Below, one piece after another: positions 612-64,000 of a stretch of DNA of 64,000 nt (position 1 is the first letter of the stretch; the number at the start of each line of letters is the position of its first letter). The notes under the pieces are model-generated. The model was not told the DNA's origin, searched no databases, and saw only the letters and a program-made list of their open reading frames with translations. Made by a program: the position numbers and the translations under genes. Source of the DNA: Elusimicrobiota bacterium (GTDB lineage: Bacteria; Elusimicrobiota; Elusimicrobia; 2-02-FULL-39-32); contig JACPBF010000007.1 of assembly GCA_016180425.1 (NCBI GenBank), forward strand, positions 1 through 64,000, read 5' to 3'.

Positions 612-1259
612 TCAATAGAATATCTCTCCATCAGTCCCTCTACTAAAAAGAGTAGTCCCATCGAAGGACCAGGTGAAGTCATTCACATCTTTAGCAGGGC
701 CAGTCAGAGGAGTTCCTTTCTTATTCACTATATTTCCTTCTTCGTACTTCCAATAGAATATCTCTCCATCAGTCCCTCCTATAAAAAGAGTAGTCCCATC
801 GCTGGACCATGTGAAGCCCTTCACACTTTGAGTAGCGCCAGTCAGAGGAGTTCCCTGCTTATTTACGATCTTTCCATCTTCGTACTTCCAGTAGAATATC
901 TCTCCACCATCCCCTCTACTAAAAAGAGTAGTCCCATCCTTGGACCAGGTGAAGTCCAACACAGCTTTAGTAGTGCCAGTCAAAGGAGTTCCCTGATTAT
1001 TCACGATCTTTCCATCTTCGTACTTCCAGTAGAATATCTCTCCTTTATCCCCTCCTATAAAAAGAGTAGTCCCATCCTTGGACCAGGTGAAGCCCCACAC
1101 AGGTTGAGTAGTGCCAGTCAGACGAGTTCCTTTCTTATTCACTATTTTTCCATCTTCGTACTTCCAGTAGAATATCTCTCCACCATCCCCTCTACTAAAA
1201 AGAGTAGTCCCATCCCTAGACCATGTGAAGCCAAACACATATTGAGTAGGTCCTAGAAG
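100..1259 (-). repeat. 138-bp tandem coding repeat, nine units (beta-propeller)
   Basis: Nine consecutive units of 46 codons can be counted in the direction of the gene, each of the form LTGxTxxVxxFTW, SxDGTTLF, GEIFYWKY, then GxIVNxxGT. Unit 5 is only 92 bp because 46 bp are missing, which causes the frameshift; the last unit lacks its end. High nucleotide identity between units suggests recent expansion or homogenisation. The pattern resembles WD40/PQQ-like propeller blades, but I cannot assign the exact family. The same repeats produce long spurious frames on the plus strand. Confidence 0.9.
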
Positions 1260-3518
1260 CTGTTCTCCAATTTCCCAATCCCTCTCTACCCACTCTTTTT
1301 TGGTGAGTTCCTGTATCTCTTTCTCTACAAACTCCCTTCCTCCCTCCCAGTCACCTATTCTGTACTCTGCGCGGATGATCTCCCCTAACTCTTCATCTGG
1401 ATATTTCTGAATCGCCTCTATAATTCTCTCTAACACTCTCAAGGACATCTTTCTCCATACCTTGCCACTGGTGTTAATCCTCTCTTGCATCTCCACTAAC
1501 TCTATAATGAACTCTTCTGGCACTTTTCCATTGCTTGTTCTTTTTAAGAATTCTACTCTCTTTTCTTTAGATAATTCTTTTACCTCTAAGATCGCGCCAA
1601 ACCGATCTTCAAAGTCTTCTCCTAACTCATATCCGCCATAAGGTTCTTTTGCCTCAACCTCTAAGATCGCGCCAAACCGATCTTCAAAGTCTTCTCCTAA
1701 CTCATATCCGCCATAAGGTTCTTTTGCCTCATTCATGGTACCTATGATTTGAAACCCTTCCCCTCTTTTTACTCTTTGCCCATCTGGCAACTCGATCTCT
1801 TTACTTTGCATCAAATCATTTAATATGGCTCTAGCTCCGGGTCTAGTTTTAGTGACTTCATCAATGATAATGATTTTTCCTTCTTTATAGGCTTTTACAA
1901 TCTGGCTATATTCCCAGATAGTTAAACTTTTTTCTAATCCTCTCCAAGCCACTAGATCTTGTCCTTCTATCTCTTCACTCAGAGACATCACTATCGGCTC
2001 TTCTCCCATTAACTCTCCATAGACTAGAGCTAACCAATCTTTTCCTACCCCTGCTTCCCCTACTAATAAAACATGCTCGCGTAAAGCGCGTGCCCTTAAC
2101 ACCTCTTTGATGATGTCTAAACCTTCATCTGTCCATTTTTGGATAGCATTGTATTCACTTGGGTTTTTAGGAGCTTCACTCAGTTTAAACTCCACATCTC
2201 CATCCATAACGATCCAGTAGTTCTGTCCCTTTTTTCTAAAATATTCTACTCTTCCTCTAATTCCTAGCTGACTCATTCTTCTCTCTTCCATAGATTTTGA
2301 AATTTGAGCAGAGGGCAGTCTCCCTAAAATTTCATCCTTAGCCTCTTCTCCATAGATATGAGCTATCGCTTCTAATGTAGATTCTTTCTCGGTTTCAGCC
2401 ATAGATAAAATAAAAGATTTGGTTCTTTCGATCGCGCTTTTTTCAGGAGCCATGGGATTGTTCCAGTGGTAAAGTTCATGGTCTAACCCAACCATTGCCA
2501 ACTCATTATAGTCCAATGCGCTTGAATCCAGATACAGAATCCCTTTATTTAAATCCATAGAGCCAAGAGGTCCATATCCTTCTGCTATCACAATGCGAAA
2601 ATCACGGCTTTGAGGGTAATTCTTTAGAACTTCCTGTAAAACACTATTTAAATTTCTTTCTTTTTCAGAACTTAGCTCCTCTCCCCACTCATGGTCTTCT
2701 GAAACTCTAGTGATAGTCCATTGCGCTTTGCCGATTCCAAAACCTAGAACTTTTTCCTTTTCTTTTCTAATGTTCCAACTCCCAATGTATCGAACCGTTA
2801 CGCCAAACTCATTTCGTTTCTGTAGAACATGAGTCATTTCACTGCGGCTCTTAAGATAAGATTGTGCGGTTATGTTTGTTTTTATCCAAGAGCGCATCTG
2901 CCAGAAAGAATATTTGGTTAAACCACAGGTGAGAATTTGGCTAAAGGTTCGCACCTGTTTTTTCCAATTTGGATGAAGTTTAAACCCTGATTCCCCTAGA
3001 ACAATAGGGATGGAAACGCTAATCAGTAACAAGAGAATTTTTAAAGAGAAAGAGTCTAAAGTAAGATGAGAGTCCGCAAGGTAAGAGAATGTGAGGTATG
3101 CAACTATAGAAATGGATTCGTATAACACTTGGCTGATCTCTAGGGAATGCGTAATTTTAATAGAGCTGAATTTAAACAAGGTTTGTTTGGTAAGGGTTAG
3201 AATCTGTTGGAAACTCTGTTGTGTGATTTCATATTTTTTTTGTAAAAGGTTGCGTAGAAGCAAGGCTTCTTTTTCTTCTTTGTTTCCCCTGAACGCATTA
3301 ATCGTATCGCGAAACTTGGCTTTTTCAAGGGGGGAGGCTTCTTCCATGCTCTGGAGTCTGGCTCTTAAATGATAAGAAGAACTATTTTGTAAGGATTCAA
3401 ATTTTTTTCCTTGCGCATAAGCAGGGGCAAGCGCTGAAAATAAAAAGAGCCCTGCCAGAACAAGGCAGCTCTTTTGTTTCATAGTTGAACTTTCTATTTT
3501 ATTCCAGAAATGAATCAT
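612..3518 (-). CDS. Signal-bearing multidomain protein: HELYH metalloprotease-like, MoxR/AAA_5 ATPase, beta-propeller (frameshifted)
   Basis: I chose the ATG at 3518, giving 968 residues, because the resulting N-terminus MIHFW...AYAQG matches that of the giant gene at 55789; the frame is open further upstream to 3692, but that would place the start above the predicted promoter. Order of parts: signal peptide (1-37), one or two hydrophobic segments (about 131-176), a zinc-protease-like HELYH (347-351), an AAA+ module with Walker A GEAGVGKD (487-494), Walker B IIIIDE and sensor GTMNE, then tandem propeller repeats from about 754. The AAA+ part looks like the MoxR/dynein-related AAA_5 group. Oddities: Asp replaces the usual Ser/Thr after the Walker A lysine, 25 residues are exactly duplicated after sensor 1, and the frame ends within repeat 5 because of a 46-bp deletion. 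Substrate unknown. An AAA+ ATPase needs cytoplasmic ATP, so topology behind an export signal is unclear. Confidence 0.75.
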   Translation of the reverse strand: MIHFWNKIESSTMKQKSCLVLAGLFLFSALAPAYAQGKKFESLQNSSSYHLRARLQSMEEASPLEKAKFRDTINAFRGNKEEKEALLLRNLLQKKYEITQQSFQQILTLTKQTLFKFSSIKITHSLEISQVLYESISIVAYLTFSYLADSHLTLDSFSLKILLLLISVSIPIVLGESGFKLHPNWKKQVRTFSQILTCGLTKYSFWQMRSWIKTNITAQSYLKSRSEMTHVLQKRNEFGVTVRYIGSWNIRKEKEKVLGFGIGKAQWTITRVSEDHEWGEELSSEKERNLNSVLQEVLKNYPQSRDFRIVIAEGYGPLGSMDLNKGILYLDSSALDYNELAMVGLDHELYHWNNPMAPEKSAIERTKSFILSMAETEKESTLEAIAHIYGEEAKDEILGRLPSAQISKSMEERRMSQLGIRGRVEYFRKKGQNYWIVMDGDVEFKLSEAPKNPSEYNAIQKWTDEGLDIIKEVLRARALREHVLLVGEAGVGKDWLALVYGELMGEEPIVMSLSEEIEGQDLVAWRGLEKSLTIWEYSQIVKAYKEGKIIIIDEVTKTRPGARAILNDLMQSKEIELPDGQRVKRGEGFQIIGTMNEAKEPYGGYELGEDFEDRFGAILEVEAKEPYGGYELGEDFEDRFGAILEVKELSKEKRVEFLKRTSNGKVPEEFIIELVEMQERINTSGKVWRKMSLRVLERIIEAIQKYPDEELGEIIRAEYRIGDWEGGREFVEKEIQELTKKEWVERDWEIGEQLLGPTQYVFGFTWSRDGTTLFSRGDGGEIFYWKYEDGKIVNKKGTRLTGTTQPVWGFTWSKDGTTLFIGGDKGEIFYWKYEDGKIVNNQGTPLTGTTKAVLDFTWSKDGTTLFSRGDGGEIFYWKYEDGKIVNKQGTPLTGATQSVKGFTWSSDGTTLFIGGTDGEIFYWKYEEGNIVNKKGTPLTGPAKDVNDFTWSFDGTTLFSRGTDGEIFY
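1582..1731 (-). repeat. Exact 75-bp tandem duplication inside the AAA+ domain
   Basis: Bases 1582-1656 and 1657-1731 are identical. In the protein the 25-residue block EAKEPYGGYELGEDF... ending in GAILEV occurs twice back to back, just after the sensor-1 motif GTMNE. The length is a multiple of three, so the frame is kept. Related ATPases have only one copy here, so the second would be an insertion next to the DRF (arginine-finger-like) region. Confidence 0.95.
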
Positions 3519-3556: not shown

Positions 3557-3614
3557 TAAAGTATGGAAGGAGAACCCACAACTTTTCTTCAACGATTTGT
3601 AACAATTTTGTGAC
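3557..3614 (-). promoter_or_regulatory. Promoter with two 11-bp direct repeats, same design as the giant gene's
   Basis: Read on the minus strand: GTCACAAAATT (3614-3604), GTTACAAATCG (3603-3593), TTGAAGA (3592-3586), 21 bp, then ATACTTTA (3564-3557), whose CATACT is a plausible -10. Two direct repeats of 11 bp, one helical turn apart, are typical of sites for OmpR/PhoB-type regulators. The ATG chosen for the gene is 38 nt beyond the ATACTTTA box. The same sequence elements in the same order lie at 55682-55738. The transcription start is inferred. Confidence 0.65.
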
Positions 3615-3724
3615 TTTTTGCGTACCCCTCTGGGCACGCAGCAGTACGCGTACGGAAGCTATAGCTAAAATCAGTTGGATGAAAGGAGCCAACTTGAGAC
3701 AAAACCTGCAAGTCTGTTAGTGAG

Positions 3725-3789
3725 GGACTGGATTAAAGGGAGTAATCTTTTTAGTCTAAGCAGTCCGACAAATTCCGCAATAGGCGGAA
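3725..3789 (+). other. Nested hairpins, possible structured RNA
   Basis: GGACTG (3725-3730) pairs with CAGTCC (3761-3766); inside it GATTA (3731-3735) pairs with TAATC (3743-3747). A further hairpin follows at once, TTCCGC (3773-3778) with GCGGAA (3784-3789) around the loop AATAG. Three perfect stems in 65 bases is more than expected in AT-rich spacer DNA. I could not match it to a known riboswitch; the next plus-strand gene, mgtE, starts about 390 bases further on. Confidence 0.3.
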
Positions 3790-3843
3790 GACACGAAAGA
3801 GCGGGTCGTAATCAGAGTAATGCAAAGAAAAAGGATGAAGCGC

Positions 3844-55028: not shown

Positions 55029-55364
55029 TTATTTTTCAAGGATTTTTTTAACTTGTTTTTCTAAAAAAGGGAGCTTACTTTTTACAACGTCTAGAATAAT
55101 TTCAGGATCAATCCCAAAATACTCATGGATTAAAATATCTCTTAATCCAGCTATGCTTTTCCAATCTATTTCAGGATTTTTATTCCTTACTTGATCTGGT
55201 AAATGTTTTACCGCCTCGCCAATAATTTCAAGATTGCGAATGATTGCGTCAAATGTTTTTTCATCTTCTAAAATTCCATCCAAATGTATCCCAGCCGTAT
55301 AGCTATTTATTTTAGAAATACCTTGCAGAATATCCTCTAAGTAAACCTTATAATCCCGGAGCAT
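55029..55364 (-). CDS. hepT: HEPN-domain toxin HepT (DUF86)
   Basis: The 111-residue helical protein has the HEPN RNase motif RDILIHEY (Arg75 to His80, Rx4H, then Tyr82) and the DUF86 pattern with AIIRNLEIIGEAVKHLPD and W68KSIAGLRD. HepT is an RNase-like toxin kept inactive by AMPylation of the tyrosine by MntA. It overlaps mntA by 17 bp and is followed 14 bp later by the ferredoxin reductase gene, so this toxin pair may be transcribed with housekeeping genes. Confidence 0.92.
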   Translation of the reverse strand: MLRDYKVYLEDILQGISKINSYTAGIHLDGILEDEKTFDAIIRNLEIIGEAVKHLPDQVRNKNPEIDWKSIAGLRDILIHEYFGIDPEIILDVVKSKLPFLEKQVKKILEK

Positions 55365-55644
55365 ATGTTACTTCTTTCAAGATAGTTTCTCTTAGTCTTG
55401 GTTTAATTGTATTGGGAATAATAAGATCAACCTTGCATTTAAATATTTCTTCCAAATAAAATTTTAGCCCCATATAGTTATCAAATGATTTAGTATTAAA
55501 CTCAACAATGAAATCAATATCGCTTGTTTCAATATTTTCACCTCTTGCATAGGAGCCAAAAAGCCCAAGCCGGCGAACCCCATATTCTTGAATACTACTT
55601 CGATGTTTTTGGATTGACTTAATTATCTCTTCTTTATTTAACAT
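55348..55644 (-). CDS. mntA: Minimal nucleotidyltransferase antitoxin MntA
   Basis: The 98-residue protein has the polymerase-beta nucleotidyltransferase signature LFGSYARGENIETSDIDF (Gly30-Ser31, Asp42, Asp44) and a third strand with VDLII. MntA proteins add AMP to HepT and so block its RNase activity. Order mntA-hepT is the usual one. A TATAAT (minus strand, 55672-55667) 23 bp upstream could be its -10 box. Confidence 0.92.
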   Translation of the reverse strand: MLNKEEIIKSIQKHRSSIQEYGVRRLGLFGSYARGENIETSDIDFIVEFNTKSFDNYMGLKFYLEEIFKCKVDLIIPNTIKPRLRETILKEVTYAPGL

Positions 55645-55681: not shown

Positions 55682-55738
55682 GTTACAAAAATGTTACAAA
55701 AAGTTGAAGATTAATTTGATTCTATCTTCTATACTTTA
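55682..55738 (+). promoter_or_regulatory. Promoter with two 11-bp direct repeats ahead of the giant gene
   Basis: GTTACAAAAAT (55682-55692) and GTTACAAAAAG (55693-55703) are followed directly by TTGAAGA (55704-55710), 20 bp, and ATACTTTA (55731-55738), with TATACT (55730-55735) as -10. The giant gene's ATG is 50 nt beyond. The design is the same as at 3557-3614 on the other strand. Tandem 11-bp repeats suit a PhoB/OmpR-type dimer. They could also act on the divergent mntA promoter. Confidence 0.65.
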
Positions 55739-55788: not shown

Positions 55789-58700
55789 ATGATTCATTTT
55801 TGGATTGCAAAGAATCATCGCAGGCTGCTGCAATGTACCGCAGGGTTAGTTCTGGGCAGTTTTTTATTTACAACCATTTCCGCTCCTTTTGCTGAAGGCA
55901 GTTTGTGGAAAGAGCGTAAATCTTACCTGCAAATGGCTCAAGCGCCAATAAATCCACAACCTCTCCCTCTTCTGAATCTTTCTCAAGTTTTAACACAAAA
56001 ATTTTCTGCAAAATATAATATCCCAACCGCATCGTCTCACCTTTCAGATATAGCCTTCTCCTTGAGTTCTCTCCCAGGAACCATCCGCAAGATTTCTGTT
56101 CCTCAAAAAGGAAAGCAGGGTCCTATTGTGCTGCATATCCAGGATGTGCACCTCAATCAAGAGGCTCAAGGCAACATTGGAAAAACAATCCAAGGTTTAG
56201 TTAATGCGGATAAAATCAGCTTAGTGGCATTGGAAGGCGCATTTGAGAAAATAGATTTAAGCAGATTTAGAAGGTCTCCCTATCCAGAGGCAATCCAGAA
56301 GGTTGCTGATTATCTTTTGAGGGAGAACAAAATATCAGGAGCACTTCATACAGCGTTTACTTCCAGAAAAGAGATTCCACCCATGGTTGGAATTGACGAT
56401 GAGAATCATTACCATGCAAATGTGAACGCGTACAAAAAATCTTATGAATTAGCATCGAGCAACTTAAAAAATCTCTTAGCGATACAGTCTGAATTGGAAA
56501 ATGAGAAAGGGAAAGTTTTCAATGCTGATTTAAAAGTTTTTGATCAAAAAGCGCAAAGCTTTCATGCGGGAAAAATAAAACTGGCTGAATATTTAGATTT
56601 TTTGGTTGAAGAGAGCCTTTGTGAAGATCAAAATGATCGAAGAATGAACTCACAAAATGAGATTGTCCCAAAACACAAGTGTCAAGATAAGACTGTTCAA
56701 AATTTTATCAAATGCGCAAAGATTGAATCCTCGCTTGATTTTAAGAAGGTAGAAAAAGAGCGTTCTCAACTTATTCAAGCATTAGTCCGAAATTTAAATG
56801 AATCTCAAATAGAAGAACTAACTCAACAAAGTTTAGCTTATCGCTTAGGGAATATAGGGTATGCTGACTATTATGGTTTTATTCAAAATCTTTGCAAATC
56901 AAATAAAATCGTCTTAATCCAATATCCAGCAATGGATCAATATATTCAATATACACTACTTGCTGATTCCATTAATTCAGAGGAACTTTTTAAGAAAATT
57001 AAAGAAATTGAAGAAGAGGGATATGAGCATTTGGCAAAAACAGCTCTTGAAAAAGAGTTGATTTTCAAATCTAAACAATCCTACCTCACGAGAAAATTGC
57101 TTGAGTTTACCTTAACCCCAGAGGAATGGAAAGAATACGAAAAATTAAGAGGACATTTTTTCAACCTTTCAAGAAAAGAGCAAACTTTTTCAGAATCCAG
57201 CAATCACTCTTTATTAGATTTAAACTCTTTTGAAGATTTTTATAGAGAAGCTAAAATCCGGGATCAAGCCATGGCAGGGAATCTGTTAAGAGAGATTGAA
57301 CTTCATGATTTGGGGTTTTCTACAGTTTACTCGTCTGCCAAAACAACAAATAAAGAATTTAGAGAAATGCAAAGCAGGAAACAGAAATCCAAAGTTGTTT
57401 TGTTGGTAACAGGAGGTTTTCATTCTGAAGGTATAGAGAATCGGCTTATTCAAGAAGGGATGACTGTGATTAACTTTGCTCCAAAAATGACTAAAGTGGA
57501 GTTGGAAAACGGAGCAGCTCATTTAACTGTGTTTACCCAAGAAAAAACACCGCTTGAGAAACTTTTTAAAGGAGAGAAGCTGACCCTGCCTCCTAAAACG
57601 TTTCCTAAACAACTTTTGCCTATTGCAGCCGCGCTTGTCATAGGGTTTTTAGCGATCTGGTCTCCTCAAATGACGTCTCCAGCCCAAGCAAACACAGCGA
57701 ATCGAATTCTCTTAGGTCAGGAGGTTGCAGAGGAAACAAAGGTAGAAAAAGTTAAATGGCTTGAACCCAGAACATCTCAACTCTTCTTGCAAAAGCCCAA
57801 TGGAACTGTGAAGGTAACTGTTAATAGTGATGAGAAGAAAGATATTACTGTAAAAGAAGAAACCTTTAAAAGTTTTGGTTCTGAACTAAATCAATGGTAT
57901 GAGGGACTTCTCCAAAAAATTTTAAGGCCGTATAAAAAAATAGTTTACAAAAGATTGTCTCAAAAAGTTTTAACGCCATATAGGAAAGGCGTTATAAAGA
58001 TCAAAAAGATTTATGGGGAGAACAGACCTTTTGGGTCCAAATCAGATCCAGACTCAATGCCATTATCAGGATTTATTCCTCCGCTTGCAACCACTCGCCG
58101 AGATGATGAGAGCGCTGAAGATAGCGATGGTAAAGTCAATATCAATACTGCATCCAGAGAGCAATTGATCGCATTATTTGGAAAAATTATTCACCCAAAA
58201 CGGGAAGGAAAAAGGTTAGAGGCGATTGTAAATCGTTTATTGGAAAGAAGGCCTTTTAGTTCGCTAGATCATTTAAGCAGCGTGCCCGGAATAGGTTCTG
58301 GTTCAACTTTTAGAGAGATTAAAGCGCAATTAGCTGATCAGATTTCTTTTGGCGCTATTGAGCAGAATAATGTTGCTTTGCCAGATGAAAATAGAACTGG
58401 AACAGGCATAGTAGAATTTTTGGAGTTTCGAGATAAAACGATTGAACTTCTTGAGACATTTTGTTTATCATTTTCAGCATCCTTACCTTTAGGGACACGA
58501 TCTACTGTGGAAGATTGGGTCATTCATATCAGAAACGCTTCTAGCGCTCAAGAATTGCTCAAGGCTTTAGAAGCATTATCCCTTGTTCCTACAGAAGATG
58601 AACAATTAATATTAGATGGCGTAAGAAATTTCTTCCTTCAAAAATATGGTGTTGAAAAATTCCCAATTATTTTGGTTCAACCATTGGCTGTTCAATCTAT

Positions 58701-61700
58701 GGGTGATGTTATACCAGGACTATATTCGCAAAATAGCGAGGAAGGGGTCATTGAATATTGGAAGGTTTTATTCACGAATATCATCTTTTCCGGTTTTTAT
58801 GGCGCGCCAGGGATGACTGGCACTTTTCTAGATCATATGCAAAAAAAGCCTTTTATTGTGTTCACTAGACAGGCATCTCCAGAACTCCTGCTTTATTACT
58901 TAACCCATGAAGCGCACCACGTTCGACAACCTCGAAGCGTCCCTAGAGTTAAAATTTCTGAGGGAGAAAAAAAATTAGAGATTCCTTCAATTTTACATCG
59001 TTTTCTTTTTGAGGCTTATGCTGAGTTCTCTGCTCTAGGCGATCTTCCTGCAATCTCTGCTCAGCTGCCATTAAATTTAGATTGTTCCAGATTTTATGAA
59101 CCTAATTTTAAAGGTGGATCTCCTTATTATGCGGGATTATTATTTATTGAAAGTATTATAAAGCAAAAATCAATTCCAATCAATTTTGAAGCGATTGAAC
59201 AAGTTGCGCTGAGAGATGATTTTACTCTAATGATAAAACAGCTTGGCAAAGCTAGATGGGAACTATTCTCAAATATCGCTAAGAATCTAACTGTGAATCC
59301 TAGATTTCTTGAAATGAGGGAGTATGATCTTTTGGTAGTAATGAATAGCCTGGTGGCATTAACCCTATCTTTAGATCAGTATCGCGTTGCAGTAAACCGT
59401 CTGCGGGCCATGCCCTATGTTCTTGCCGCGCTTAATCCTAATGAGGAGATAAAAAATGTTATTAGGAACGCTGTTTCTCGGACCGGATTTCAGATATCAG
59501 AAGTTCAAATAGGTGAAATGCTTCTTGAAATTTATGGATTTGTGAATAGCAAGAATATGGATTTTGCTCTGGCAGATGAGGTGATTGAGCGCGGAGTGAA
59601 TCTCGCCAATGCAAAGAATATTGTGGGACGATATCTATCAGACTGCGCAATGAGCATGGTTCGTGGAGGATGGCTGCAAAAGTTTCGTAAGTCAGGAGCG
59701 CAGCCTGGAGCCTTAGGACTATGGAAAATGTTAGGGATGAATATGGATTTAACGGTAATTGGCGTTATTGAAGGATTCATTATCGTTTATGCTATGACAC
59801 TATTCATGCCATATACCTCACCAGAATTTACATATAAATTTATCTCCCTGATAGCTCAAGGCACTCTTTTTGCCATCTTAACAGTCTATAGCATCACATT
59901 TTTGCTTCATCTATTCTCAGGTGTACAACAGCCCTCTGGCAAAATTCTTCGTTGGTCGTTTTTCAAAGGTTCAGATGCAAGATTCGAGAAAGTCTCCTTT
60001 AGAGAAGCTTTCCATGCTGGTTTAGAGGCCACTAATAACGCTACATTTAAATCCGCTTTTCAGATTTTCCCTTTACTTTGGATTTCTGTATTTCTCCCTT
60101 CTCCATGGTCATACCTTGTCACGGTCATAGCAACTATTTTTGGCGCACTGCCTCATTTTTTTATCAATGAACGGATTAAACAGGCGTATGGCACATTTAA
60201 TTTGGATGTATTGACCGAGACCTACGATTCTCCCAATAGAATAGAAGATGGGGATTCTCATGGTTCAACTGGTTCAACGGCTGATATTCAAAACGAGATT
60301 CAACACTATCCTTTAGATGGAGCACAAGGTCCTGTTCTTTCTGACACAACGCGGGAAGAAGATCATAGGTATGTTTATGATCCTGTCATGAAAAAGGTGA
60401 TTTTGAATCAGCTGGAAACAGAGCTGGCTTTTCCGCATAAGAGCGAGTTTGTTCACACTCGCAATGAAATCACTGAAATTTTTCAAAAGTTGCTAGAGAG
60501 CGCAAGTGAACTTTTGGAGGAAAAGGGAAAAATAGAGCAACTGGCTGGTTTAAGGGAACTGAAGATTTATTTATCCGATACACTTACGCCAAACGCATCC
60601 GCTGTTTTCCAGCATAACTTTATGATTTTGAATATTGGCACACTCAGGCAATTATCTAAAAAAGGGCTTTTATCTAAAGACGCGGTTGCTTTTATTTTAG
60701 CTCATGAACTTTCTCACATGTTGCAATATAGGGACGATGTGGATGAAGGAAAAATAAACAGGGAAAAAGTAAATTTTAGATCCTGGAAAGAAACTATAAA
60801 GGAAAAATTTTATGAACATAAGGAGCGCTATACCAGAGAACAGGATGCGGATATTAGAGCGCTGGAGATCGTTAACAGGGCAGGTTACAACATGAGCGCC
60901 ACAGTTTCTTTCTTTGAGTCAATACAAAAGAATTCTTTTAGTTTTGAACAGATGCTTCATGAACACCCATCACCTCAGACGCGGATAGATTATATAAAAA
61001 AAATATTGAGAGCCTCTAACTGGCGTGAATCCCAAACATTGGAAAAGTTCAGCGACGCTGTTTTAGAGGAAATGAATGCTCCGCAATCCTTGATGCGCAG
61101 ACGTCAGGAGCAATTATCTTTAATTGTCAATCAAAAAGATTTGGAGTTTGCGATTGAAAATGCTCAAACCATTGAAGAGCTGGATTTAATTGTTTCCTGG
61201 TCTTTAAGCAGAGCGCTGGAATTAGAGTCAAAAAAGATAGCCCCATTAGTTCTAAAGCTGCTTCTAAAACGAAAAGATAAGGTTTTAAAAGGATTGTTTC
61301 GTTTTGTTGTGAAAGCATCCCGAATTGATCTTTACACCCATCTTTGGATCCATAAAAATGAGCGATATAAGGATCGCTATGAACCTCAAGGTCTATTTTG
61401 GTTTCTTTTCACTAAAATGAGTTTGATAAAAAAGAAAGTCTCCTATTTTATTTTTACCTATTTAGTTACTGATTCATTGCCTATTTATGAGGCGAATGAT
61501 CGCACCAAAGGGTTTTATAGCAGAGTTCCTCTTTTCATAGATGGTTATGATCGTCTCTTCGATGCTATTAAGGAAGAGCAGATCATACAAGAGAAAATCA
61601 AGCTCAGGAATCAAATTTTGCAAAAGATCAGGGCTAAGGCACTTGAGCTGGAAAATGGCAATGAAAAGAGCATTGAACTCGTAAGACTGGAAGCATTGAG

Positions 61701-64000
61701 AATGAACCCTTTGTTGGTGTCAAATGCCAGTTTTTCAGGGGAAGGATATGATATCCCATTCTCTTATAGACACGAAAGAATTACTAAAGAAAAAATTAGA
61801 AAAATTGAAAAAGGTCTGGAAGAGTCTATCAGTCAGTACTCCTCCCAAGAATTAACTATTTTTTTAAGGCAAATGCTTCCGTTTAGAGGAATGGGTTTTG
61901 AATATATAAGAATTTGGGATAAGGATGAGCGTTCAGATTTTAATGATTATTTAGCTACTGTGAATGAGGCGCGGTGGTCAGTTTATGAGGTTATGGTATC
62001 TTTTATGCTGAAACGTTTAGTTTTAGATTTAAAAAATCCTTCCTCAGGTCAACTTCTTGAACTTTTAGATCTATTGCTGCTTAAAAAAAGAGAATTTTTA
62101 GGGAAACTGACTCCTAAAATTGATCATGTGGCCAGATGGATACTAAAGAGGATCAGAAAAATTTTAGCTCAAACCATTCAAAATCAAAGAGAAGAGCATT
62201 TAAAAGTAAAACAATATTTTGCTGACCATTGGCAACTCTACCCCTTAAGAGAAATAGGAGAATTTTTTTATGAAGAATTATTAATGGACCCGGCTGATCC
62301 TTTGACCCTTAAGCTCCTTCAAAAATCAGAAAACTTAAGGAACAATGTTTTTAGTGTTTTGATCAGGACATTAAAAGGAGCAAATGCAAGGGAACTTTTG
62401 TTTGAGGATGAAGTAATGAATTATCAAATGGAACGAGTTATTCGGTTTTTTAGATTAGATGATGCGCAAATAACTTTGTTGCATGCTGCGGTTGCGCAGA
62501 AAATCGCGGAATCCCGGAGGGAAGACCAAAGCAGGAATAGACTGATTGAAATTCAGGAATCTTTTTCATCGTTGGAACGTTCTGGTATAAATGAAAAACC
62601 ATTGGAATATGATCCGCTTTCCAGACAACTGGCTGAACTTTTGTTTGACCAGGATCAATTGAATGAGGATGGTTTGGCAAATATTTTTGGGTTTGTTACT
62701 GATAATAATAGAGCGACCTCAAATCGTTTAAATCCTAGTGAAATAGAGACCGTAAATCAAAAAGTTAGGGAAGCTCTGGATGAGGCGGGACTATTCATAA
62801 ATGATTTGGCAAGTCTGAATTTTGAAATTAAGAAAATTATTTACTTTTTTTACCTTGGGGGTATTCAGGAAGCAGACTTTTTAATTAAATTTGCCAGAGC
62901 TGCTTACAAACGCCGCTCTATTCATCAGAATGATTTGGAGTTATTGGCGCAGTTTTTAAATAGCCCAAGTTTTTTAGAAAAGCAAAAAAGACGGGGAGTT
63001 CCCAAAACTTTTTCTGCTGAACGGGTTAGGTGGAAAGGATTTGGTAGATTTTTGGGAAGCGAGGAGAATATGTCTCCAGATATGTTTCTGGTTATGAAAC
63101 CTTTTTACAGACCTCAAACATGGGGAGAATATATTGTCTCTTTTAATTTGATGGTTTATCTTCAAAGGACTAAACAAAAAAGATTGGTTCGTTTCCTGAT
63201 TGATTCCTTATTCTTGAAAAAAATCAGTTCTATCTTTTCCATGTTTTTAGGTGAACTGTGGGGCGGAGATGATTCTGATTGGTATTCTGATGGCCCAACC
63301 ACGTCCAAATTTCTAATGAGAATATTTGAAAGCGCTTTCTCCAAAATTATATTTGGCGCGCCAAAATACATTGACAGGAGAGATTTGGCTTTGGACAGTT
63401 CCTGGAAGCGGTTTTTTCTCACTCTTGTTTTTAAATCTAAAATGAATTTTGAAGAGTTGCTTAGCGAGATTAAAACTTACTTTCCAGAAGGAATCTTCAG
63501 AAATTTTCTTTTGTTTTATTTGCTTGCTAAAAGGATCCATGAGTTGGATCCTTCCTTTAAATTAAAAAAGCTTCCTGAACCCAAGGATTTAAAAGAATTT
63601 TTTCTTAAGTCAAGCCAATTTGCAAAAGAAAAAACGCTTATTTTAGAAGCGGTTGAAAAAATAACCCCATTATTAATTAGGGATCATAGAATTGATTTTA
63701 TTAATTTAAAGCTGCTTTCTTATTGGTTTTTAAAAAAAGAGGGTAAAAAGAAATCCGGCTTAGGGGAAAATGAGAGGGGAAGCTTGTATAACTTTTTTAT
63801 TGACTTGGGCGGTTTTTTGGATCTTTTAGTTTGGGGACTTGAAAAATTATATGAACTTTGGAAAAAAAGCGATCTTTATACATTTTTGACTTTTACGGTT
63901 CATTTGATTAATTACGTTTTAATCTTGCCTTTTTATGTTTTAAGCGAAGCAAGACTCCTTCCAAAATTTCTCTATAAATTAGTTGTTTGCATCCTTCTTA
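55789..64000 (+). CDS. Giant exported multidomain protein with two HExxH zinc-protease motifs (incomplete at window end)
   Basis: I read every codon from the ATG at 55789 to the edge and found no stop, so the protein exceeds 2,737 residues. Order: MIHFW signal peptide ending near PFAEG (1-37); a TraB/Tiki/ChaN-like domain (about 105-570) with IQDVH (His121), VALEG (Glu149) and TGGFH (His545); a membrane segment (609-624); a helix-hairpin-helix unit with VNINTASREQL and SVPGIG (783-845); a first zinc motif HEAHH (1040-1044) followed by FEAYAEFSAL; four membrane segments (about 1322-1462); an M48-like protease with AHELSHM (1639-1643), REQDAD (third ligand Glu1684) and EHPSPQTR (1725-1732). Residues 1745-2737 are helical and match nothing I recognise, with hydrophobic segments at the edge. 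It may be a membrane-bound protease complex in a single chain. Function is unknown; domain calls rest on motifs only. Confidence 0.85.
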   Translation, partial: MIHFWIAKNHRRLLQCTAGLVLGSFLFTTISAPFAEGSLWKERKSYLQMAQAPINPQPLPLLNLSQVLTQKFSAKYNIPTASSHLSDIAFSLSSLPGTIRKISVPQKGKQGPIVLHIQDVHLNQEAQGNIGKTIQGLVNADKISLVALEGAFEKIDLSRFRRSPYPEAIQKVADYLLRENKISGALHTAFTSRKEIPPMVGIDDENHYHANVNAYKKSYELASSNLKNLLAIQSELENEKGKVFNADLKVFDQKAQSFHAGKIKLAEYLDFLVEESLCEDQNDRRMNSQNEIVPKHKCQDKTVQNFIKCAKIESSLDFKKVEKERSQLIQALVRNLNESQIEELTQQSLAYRLGNIGYADYYGFIQNLCKSNKIVLIQYPAMDQYIQYTLLADSINSEELFKKIKEIEEEGYEHLAKTALEKELIFKSKQSYLTRKLLEFTLTPEEWKEYEKLRGHFFNLSRKEQTFSESSNHSLLDLNSFEDFYREAKIRDQAMAGNLLREIELHDLGFSTVYSSAKTTNKEFREMQSRKQKSKVVLLVTGGFHSEGIENRLIQEGMTVINFAPKMTKVELENGAAHLTVFTQEKTPLEKLFKGEKLTLPPKTFPKQLLPIAAALVIGFLAIWSPQMTSPAQANTANRILLGQEVAEETKVEKVKWLEPRTSQLFLQKPNGTVKVTVNSDEKKDITVKEETFKSFGSELNQWYEGLLQKILRPYKKIVYKRLSQKVLTPYRKGVIKIKKIYGENRPFGSKSDPDSMPLSGFIPPLATTRRDDESAEDSDGKVNINTASREQLIALFGKIIHPKREGKRLEAIVNRLLERRPFSSLDHLSSVPGIGSGSTFREIKAQLADQISFGAIEQNNVALPDENRTGTGIVEFLEFRDKTIELLETFCLSFSASLPLGTRSTVEDWVIHIRNASSAQELLKALEALSLVPTEDEQLILDGVRNFFLQKYGVEKFPIILVQPLAVQSMGDVIPGLYSQNSEEGVIEYWKVLFTNIIFSGFYGAPGMTGTFLDHMQKKPFIVFTRQASPELLLYYLTHEAHHVRQPRSVPRVKISEGEKKLEIPSILHRFLFEAYAEFSALGDLPAISAQLPLNLDCSRFYEPNFKGGSPYYAGLLFIESIIKQKSIPINFEAIEQVALRDDFTLMIKQLGKARWELFSNIAKNLTVNPRFLEMREYDLLVVMNSLVALTLSLDQYRVAVNRLRAMPYVLAALNPNEEIKNVIRNAVSRTGFQISEVQIGEMLLEIYGFVNSKNMDFALADEVIERGVNLANAKNIVGRYLSDCAMSMVRGGWLQKFRKSGAQPGALGLWKMLGMNMDLTVIGVIEGFIIVYAMTLFMPYTSPEFTYKFISLIAQGTLFAILTVYSITFLLHLFSGVQQPSGKILRWSFFKGSDARFEKVSFREAFHAGLEATNNATFKSAFQIFPLLWISVFLPSPWSYLVTVIATIFGALPHFFINERIKQAYGTFNLDVLTETYDSPNRIEDGDSHGSTGSTADIQNEIQHYPLDGAQGPVLSDTTREEDHRYVYDPVMKKVILNQLETELAFPHKSEFVHTRNEITEIFQKLLESASELLEEKGKIEQLAGLRELKIYLSDTLTPNASAVFQHNFMILNIGTLRQLSKKGLLSKDAVAFILAHELSHMLQYRDDVDEGKINREKVNFRSWKETIKEKFYEHKERYTREQDADIRALEIVNRAGYNMSATVSFFESIQKNSFSFEQMLHEHPSPQTRIDYIKKILRASNWRESQTLEKFSDAVLEEMNAPQSLMRRRQEQLSLIVNQKDLEFAIENAQTIEELDLIVSWSLSRALELESKKIAPLVLKLLLKRKDKVLKGLFRFVVKASRIDLYTHLWIHKNERYKDRYEPQGLFWFLFTKMSLIKKKVSYFIFTYLVTDSLPIYEANDRTKGFYSRVPLFIDGYDRLFDAIKEEQIIQEKIKLRNQILQKIRAKALELENGNEKSIELVRLEALRMNPLLVSNASFSGEGYDIPFSYRHERITKEKIRKIEKGLEESISQYSSQELTIFLRQMLPFRGMGFEYIRIWDKDERSDFNDYLATVNEARWSVYEVMVSFMLKRLVLDLKNPSSGQLLELLDLLLLKKREFLGKLTPKIDHVARWILKRIRKILAQTIQNQREEHLKVKQYFADHWQLYPLREIGEFFYEELLMDPADPLTLKLLQKSENLRNNVFSVLIRTLKGANARELLFEDEVMNYQMERVIRFFRLDDAQITLLHAAVAQKIAESRREDQSRNRLIEIQESFSSLERSGINEKPLEYDPLSRQLAELLFDQDQLNEDGLANIFGFVTDNNRATSNRLNPSEIETVNQKVREALDEAGLFINDLASLNFEIKKIIYFFYLGGIQEADFLIKFARAAYKRRSIHQNDLELLAQFLNSPSFLEKQKRRGVPKTFSAERVRWKGFGRFLGSEENMSPDMFLVMKPFYRPQTWGEYIVSFNLMVYLQRTKQKRLVRFLIDSLFLKKISSIFSMFLGELWGGDDSDWYSDGPTTSKFLMRIFESAFSKIIFGAPKYIDRRDLALDSSWKRFFLTLVFKSKMNFEELLSEIKTYFPEGIFRNFLLFYLLAKRIHELDPSFKLKKLPEPKDLKEFFLKSSQFAKEKTLILEAVEKITPLLIRDHRIDFINLKLLSYWFLKKEGKKKSGLGENERGSLYNFFIDLGGFLDLLVWGLEKLYELWKKSDLYTFLTFTVHLINYVLILPFYVLSEARLLPKFLYKLVVCILL

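Follow-up and report, generated by a model that had tools for sequence, protein, structure and literature searches.

The window analysed here comprises the first 64,000 nucleotides of contig JACPBF010000007.1 from an Elusimicrobiota bacterium (assembly GCA_016180425.1). It contains two distant genes with promoters of the same architecture, a giant gene on the plus strand and a gene at the left edge on the minus strand. Upstream of the giant gene, the direct repeats GTTACAAAAAT and GTTACAAAAAG (55682-55703) are followed by TTGAAGA, 20 bp and then ATACTTTA, which ends at 55738. The left-edge gene shows GTCACAAAATT and GTTACAAATCG from 3614 downwards, TTGAAGA, 21 bp, and again ATACTTTA, ending at 3557. 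The N-termini of the two proteins align without gaps over residues 1-37 (12/37 identical, BLASTP), sharing the start MIHFW, GxFLF at 23-27, A35 and G37; the only other BLASTP segment with E < 0.01 is gapped and covers 93 residues (29% identity, E 0.001). An earlier note, made from the letters of the window, had described this promoter series and this alignment, and every detail of both is present in the sequence. With up to 3 mismatches allowed, the 29-bp operator formed by the repeats and the following element is matched 2 times in the window, where shuffles give an expectation of 0.00. Coordinates are collected in Table 1.

Table 1. Features of the giant gene and the left-edge gene in the 64,000-nt window.
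Feature	Position	Strand	Remarks
Operator of giant gene: two 11-bp direct repeats GTTACAAAAAT/GTTACAAAAAG and third half-site GTTGAAGA	55682..55710	+	family-wide position weight matrix; conserved in L066
-10 box TATACT, 48 bp after operator start	55730..55735	+	
N-terminal signal module of giant	55789..55935	+	n-region +3, ~15-aa hydrophobic core, W-x-E-R
Conserved N-terminal block (IQDxH ... VTGGFHSxGI), distantly ChaN/Tiki-like	55939..57768	+	
Giant gene, truncated by window end	55789..64000	+	4751 aa in total; stop just past contig position 70041
M48-type metallopeptidase match in giant	60832..61002	+	PF01435, 1.7e-07
Operator of left-edge gene, GTCACAAAATTGTTACAAATCGTTGAAGA	3586..3614	-	
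-10 box CATACT of left-edge gene, 49 bp after operator start	3560..3565	-	
N-terminal signal module of left-edge gene	3378..3518	-	
Left-edge gene: module, AAA_5 ATPase, WD40 repeats	612..3518	-	frame breaks near 612; contig ends at 1
AAA_5 (dynein-related) ATPase domain of left-edge gene	1674..2075	-	2e-21
WD40-type repeats of left-edge gene	615..1244	-	

The source genome (G000) is a 2.6 Mb draft of an uncultured bacterium in 43 contigs, and the genome-wide counts given below come from sequence searches of this draft together with the reading of individual stretches. Across the genome, the two window sites are the sole occurrences of the complete pattern. The repeat pair GTYACAAAWWTGTTACAAA is far more common, with 17 exact occurrences and 80 at up to 3 mismatches, compared to 23 for the reversed control. 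What recurs is an operator core of two 11-bp direct repeats plus GTTKAAGA, and a 58-position promoter model finds 55 sites at E up to 0.1. Downstream of the operator sites, successive open reading frames (ORFs) begin with variants of one module of about 48 residues, with the consensus MIxFWxxKxNRxxLQxTAxxVxxSFLFTxxSAPFAxAxxWxERRKAxE. A profile built from 12 of these modules detects 31 in the genome at E < 1e-3. The longest ORFs that carry them reach 10,906, 6934, 5918, 5489, 5255, 5065 and 4754 aa, of which the 4754-aa frame is the giant of the window. The MIHFW start, which the earlier note took as the mark of a family, is a real tag but is one variant of this wider module, occurring on 3 genes compared to 31. 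The note had also held that a lack of further MIHFW genes behind such sites would speak against its proposal; the genome-wide list adds a third MIHFW gene, which has no site, and read literally this is half of that outcome.

The operator is strongly associated with the module. It lies upstream of 26 of the 30 modules examined, scoring at least 25, while the best score in shuffled upstream regions is 14.1. With leave-one-out matrices (score at least 26) it is again found at 26/30 module genes but at only 1/81 control genes (p = 4.6e-20), and this one control gene follows the operator at C4:70051 and is itself a regulon member. The comparison is partly circular, as 11 of the 12 profile seeds were found via the operator; among the 18 non-seed modules, 15 have it (p = 6e-14). 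One further module gene (L048) has an operator 1.6 kb upstream, within its operon. About thirty scattered genes, mostly giants, thus appear to form one regulated set, and the proposal made from the window alone, that large signal-bearing proteins form a family dispersed over the genome and probably co-regulated, is borne out both by the 26/30 count and by the relatives described below.

The geometry of these promoters is nearly constant. The 11-bp repeats are present in 26/26 regulon promoters, and the distance from the operator start to the first base of the -10 hexamer is 48 or 49 bp in 25/26 and 50 bp in the other. None of the 26 has a good -35 at 17 bp before the -10. We do not take TTGAAGA for a plain -35 box, since it lies too far from the -10 and GTTKAAGA keeps the phase of the repeats. 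Given the fixed 48/49 bp between array start and -10, GTTKAAGA is better read as a third, diverged half-site. The operator takes the place of the -35 at a fixed distance from the -10, as in promoters that OmpR/PhoB-type regulators activate, and from this likeness we infer activation rather than repression. PhoB binds direct repeats in tandem, covering the -35 region (PMC3348028).

Conservation extends beyond the source genome. The first 660 residues of the window's giant are 86% identical to a counterpart (L066) in Elusimicrobia bacterium RIFCSPLOWO2_02_FULL_39_32, where the promoter is kept and the sequence upstream of the operator differs from that of the window. Modules occur in 8/9 genomes of the source's own family (f1) and, phylum-wide, in 17/341 genomes and 14/100 genera. 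Among f1 relatives picked by protein alone, 18/26 modules have the operator (p = 2e-13), and 2 more have one ahead of an upstream operon gene. The f1 operator model finds no matches in other families, including f7. The idea that the operator is restricted to one family was nevertheless dropped, as the upstream regions of genome G168 (family f7), read directly, show a diverged sister operator: the 11-bp-phased TTACAAnnnnnTTACAAnnnnTTAAG stands on 18/18 modules with 0-2 mismatches, and 1800 shuffles never reached 2 mismatches. In G004 no module was detected, and the operator is kept at a regulator gene discussed below and at other signalling genes.

A shared 5' block could in principle be merely inherited or copied, by duplication or recombination of promoter plus signal, with no present co-regulation, and the earlier note had suggested spread by duplication of a 5' module. 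One sub-group (L052, L055, L056, L060-L063) does have extended promoters so nearly identical that they seem recently copied, and most giants are paralogous well beyond the signal: an N-terminal block of 600-800 aa is common to 13 of the 17 giants compared in the source genome. Identity across this block is only 25-45%, and for this reason the divergence of the giants is old and the operator is probably maintained by selection among old paralogues. Operator positions are nearly invariant despite that coding divergence, and the same operator stands on non-homologous genes. The G168 family repeats the architecture with a different operator sequence, and the sequence upstream of the operator differs between the window and L066. 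Mere copying is thus very improbable as an account of the whole set, and the suggested spread by duplication of a 5' module has partial support.

The block itself has an invariant IQDxH, together with a GGFHSxGI-like element. A match to the ChaN/Tiki superfamily (PF04187, best 8.5e-07) is seen for two of ten members, and the IQDxH invariant and the GGFH element may be features in common with it; the other eight are below detection, and a PDB profile search with the block gave no credible relative.

The operator is not confined to module genes. The site is a mark of most genes bearing the module, as expected from the window, but it also precedes other genes, which are mostly surface, exported or signalling genes: giants with a variant signal (C10:5791, C21:24748), exported or surface genes, a PorV-like gene cluster, a CheY-like regulator and a LacI-type regulator. 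The PorV-like gene L127 lies within the regulon, and three non-module regulon proteins of the source genome (L126, L128, L132) have SGxY...R-type C-terminal domains that recall the T9SS/FlgD-like sorting domains.

There are three OmpR/PhoB-type regulators (receiver plus Trans_reg_C) in the genome. One of these, a 232-aa response regulator at C3:35680-36378, lies divergently beside a 5000-aa module gene and has a triple operator 9-75 bp before its start codon. Orthologues in G005 (99%), G004 (62%) and G003 (62%) have an operator at the same place, so that operator and regulator start adjoin in four genomes from three genera, while nine other OmpR-type regulators have no operator upstream. For intact, clearly scoring upstream regions the count is 4/5 orthologues compared to 0/9 others (p = 0.005), or 4/6 orthologues with G001 taken as a failure; the upstream region in G008 is cut by the contig end. 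The best regulator homologue of G168 precedes a module giant by 0.9 kb and has the same orientation. The C3 response regulator is, from this adjacency, the likely regulator of the set, and its binding to the operator is predicted.

The regulon might instead be controlled by another factor, either one more regulator of the OmpR type or an activator unrelated to this type, with the operator at the C3 regulator serving only its divergent neighbour. That operator is indeed oriented away from the regulator and toward the divergent gene, an operator in G003 stands at a different OmpR-type regulator (L115), showing that other regulators are targets too, and G007 breaks the pattern. The divergent neighbour varies, however, being a giant gene in G000 and a CheY-like gene in G004, while regulator and operator stay paired over three genera. 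Few other candidates exist, as one of the remaining two regulators of this type is evidently PhoB, in a locus with PhoR, a porin and PstS. Control by another factor therefore appears unlikely.

The Pho box provides a further alternative, in which the set would be the phosphate-starvation regulon itself. The boxes of E. coli are 11-bp direct repeats of the TGTYACA type, and the repeats found here resemble them. The PhoB-PhoR-porin-PstS locus speaks against this: there is no operator at PhoB and none at the locus among the promoter-model matches listed, the only box listed there being the 3-mismatch GTCATATAATTGTTACATA at C43:9468. The targets, moreover, are giants and surface proteins, and an identity with the Pho regulon is improbable.

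The giants combine a constant N-terminal block with very different cores. The giant of the window has M48, ABC1-kinase, APH and NAGPA matches and ends in ARIVASSA. Another (L147) contains a SecA motor and DnaJ, and a patatin domain is found in L152. Whole central-metabolism enzyme domains sit inside two signal-bearing giants: L143 (6930 aa) has FBPase, malate synthase and isocitrate lyase domains, and L150 (4131 aa) has enoyl-CoA hydratase, proline dehydrogenase, PGK-like and HAD domains. By eye, the SecA motifs (GEGKS, AGRGTDILLG, RGRAGRQG) and the isocitrate lyase motif (KKCGHMAGKVL) look intact, and the PGK domain looks degenerate.

The carboxyl ends are again alike. A terminal [QSN][AQ] is found in 46/51 complete giants compared to 1/68 control ORFs (p = 5e-26, a value that overstates independence, as the 51 include related pairs); examples read at this end are L147, L148 and L143 in G000, and L293-L301 in G168/G169. 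The signature holds in families f1, f7 and f8 and across several phmmer clusters of C-terminal sequence, and because it spans these clusters the carboxyl end itself seems constrained. One possibility is that it is a recognition tag for export or processing. A sub-family of short proteins (WKKF/YWKKI, 362-1002 aa) lacks this end, as do L144 and L149, which may be frame-shifted; draft giants may carry assembly errors.

The module has the appearance of an export signal. By simple rules, 17/20 modules show the traits of a signal peptide, namely a positive n-region, a hydrophobic core of about 15 residues and a small-x-small site; the window's giant has A-x-G at 35-37 where its paralogues have A-x-A. 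An NCBIfam search of the module matched no signal family, and its alignment contains no YSIRK/GXXS motif. From n-region, core and A-x-A site, the module is predicted to be an export signal of the Sec/signal-peptidase-I type. Alternatively, it could anchor the protein in the membrane or serve as a targeting helix in the cytoplasm, with the giants remaining inside the cell. The charged WxERRKAxEE directly after the hydrophobic stretch would suit such a role, as would cores with SecA, DnaJ, isocitrate lyase, malate synthase and PGK-like domains, while the small-x-small site at 35-37 is conserved in most modules and other regulon members look surface-located or exported. Retention inside the cell is possible on this evidence, if rather doubtful.

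The giants are probably a regulated set switched by one sensor-regulator pair. The likely explanation is a two-component regulon whose targets are exported giants that keep their ends constant and vary in their cores; both regulator binding and export are predictions made from sequence. A signal would activate the two-component system, and the C3 regulator would bind the 11-bp-phased half-sites GTTACAAAAAT-GTTACAAAAAG-TTKAAGA, standing in for a good -35, and recruit polymerase to the -10. About 50 promoters would be activated together, including that at the regulator's own locus. Some 30 of the targets would be preproteins with one dedicated Sec/signal-peptidase-I type module, mostly giants with a constant N-block, a variable enzyme-bearing core and a constant [QSN][AQ] C-terminus. 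Made as a set and exported via the module signal, they would most likely have their effect at the surface of the cell or outside it, and this might be within a partner or prey cell, a site proposed because several cores are ATP-dependent machines.

Several observations weigh against this explanation. Secreted proteins would not normally be expected to contain ATP-dependent or metabolic domains, and the residues that follow the A-x-A site carry positive charge, an uncommon feature among Sec substrates. Since this charge and the ATP-dependent cores are hard to fit with a free extracellular life, delivery into another cell and retention inside are both possible. One complete regulon giant (L130) has no recognisable module. 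Three of the 30 module genes (L036, L039, L054) have no nearby or obvious operon operator; two of these, L036 and L039, sit among three consecutive giants of contig C33, which leaves L054 as the remaining exception. As for the regulator, a close homologue in G007 (57%) has no upstream operator, the copy in G001 (61%) is degenerate, and the best homologues in other families have no operator at their own start. The row on contig C33 consists of same-strand giants in tandem, with a 9975-aa frame, one of 6930 aa and a last one truncated where the contig ends; neither of the latter two has its own operator.

A bolder proposal, which we regard as unlikely, is that a dedicated and undescribed pathway exports or delivers giant proteins and recognises them by the module at one end and [QSN][AQ] at the other. 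Their cores (SecA-like motor, kinases, AAA+, glyoxylate-cycle enzymes) would in that case work inside another cell, all under one two-component switch.

Other features of the window concern the surroundings of the two genes. The WD40 repeats of the left-edge gene go on below 612 in a different frame (612-616, minus strand), and the gene is frameshifted or misassembled near this point and then cut by the contig end. In its AAA part, a stretch of some 25 residues is duplicated in tandem (EAKEPYGGYELGEDFEDRFGAILEV twice, at ~1575-1721, minus strand). Just upstream of its operator there is a Group II intron D1-D4-4 match (3676-3816, plus strand, 64 bits), probably a remnant. The upstream neighbour of the giant (55029-55643, minus strand) resembles, by eye, a HEPN/MNT nucleotidyltransferase pair.

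Giant genes of Elusimicrobiota and Omnitrophota are known yet unexplained, and mostly seem to be one-offs. In this genome, most of the giants found appear to form one set with a common switch, export signal and end. Operator, module and C-terminal tag provide an operational definition of the giant set, along with a candidate regulator. The elements are short and portable (a 29-bp operator, a 48-aa tag and a C-terminal dipeptide) and open to assay in laboratory hosts, although the organism is uncultured. The question raised is why signal-bearing proteins have intact-looking motifs of SecA-type ATPases and of the isocitrate lyase active site.

Our literature search, which covered sources other than bioRxiv preprints, found no paper on such a regulon. 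The phylum is reported to be rich in proteins of more than 5000 aa (PMC11573180, PMC12057145), and the passages of these reports that we consulted make no mention of a shared signal module, operator, regulator or C-terminal signature. The closest parallels lie in other systems. As in OmpR/PhoB-type regulons such as the Pho regulon (PMC4415409; PMC3348028), direct repeats of 11-bp period stand upstream of the -10 at a fixed distance, and the candidate winged-helix response regulator, whose binding is predicted, has a site of its own; in contrast to the Pho regulon, the sequence is GTTACAAA and the targets are giant and surface proteins rather than the pst locus. The YSIRK/GXXS signal peptides of staphylococcal surface proteins (PMC5962339, PMC11841062) are likewise a conserved signal-peptide motif that marks an exported subset, but the motif described here (MIxFW ... 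SAPFAxA-WxERR) belongs to another phylum and to giants, and is tied to one operator and a C-terminal tag. Polymorphic toxin systems (PMC3482391) similarly combine a constant trafficking N-terminus with variable, shuffled domains; in the giants, however, the C-terminus is conserved rather than a variable toxin domain, and the cores are metabolic enzymes, SecA and kinases.
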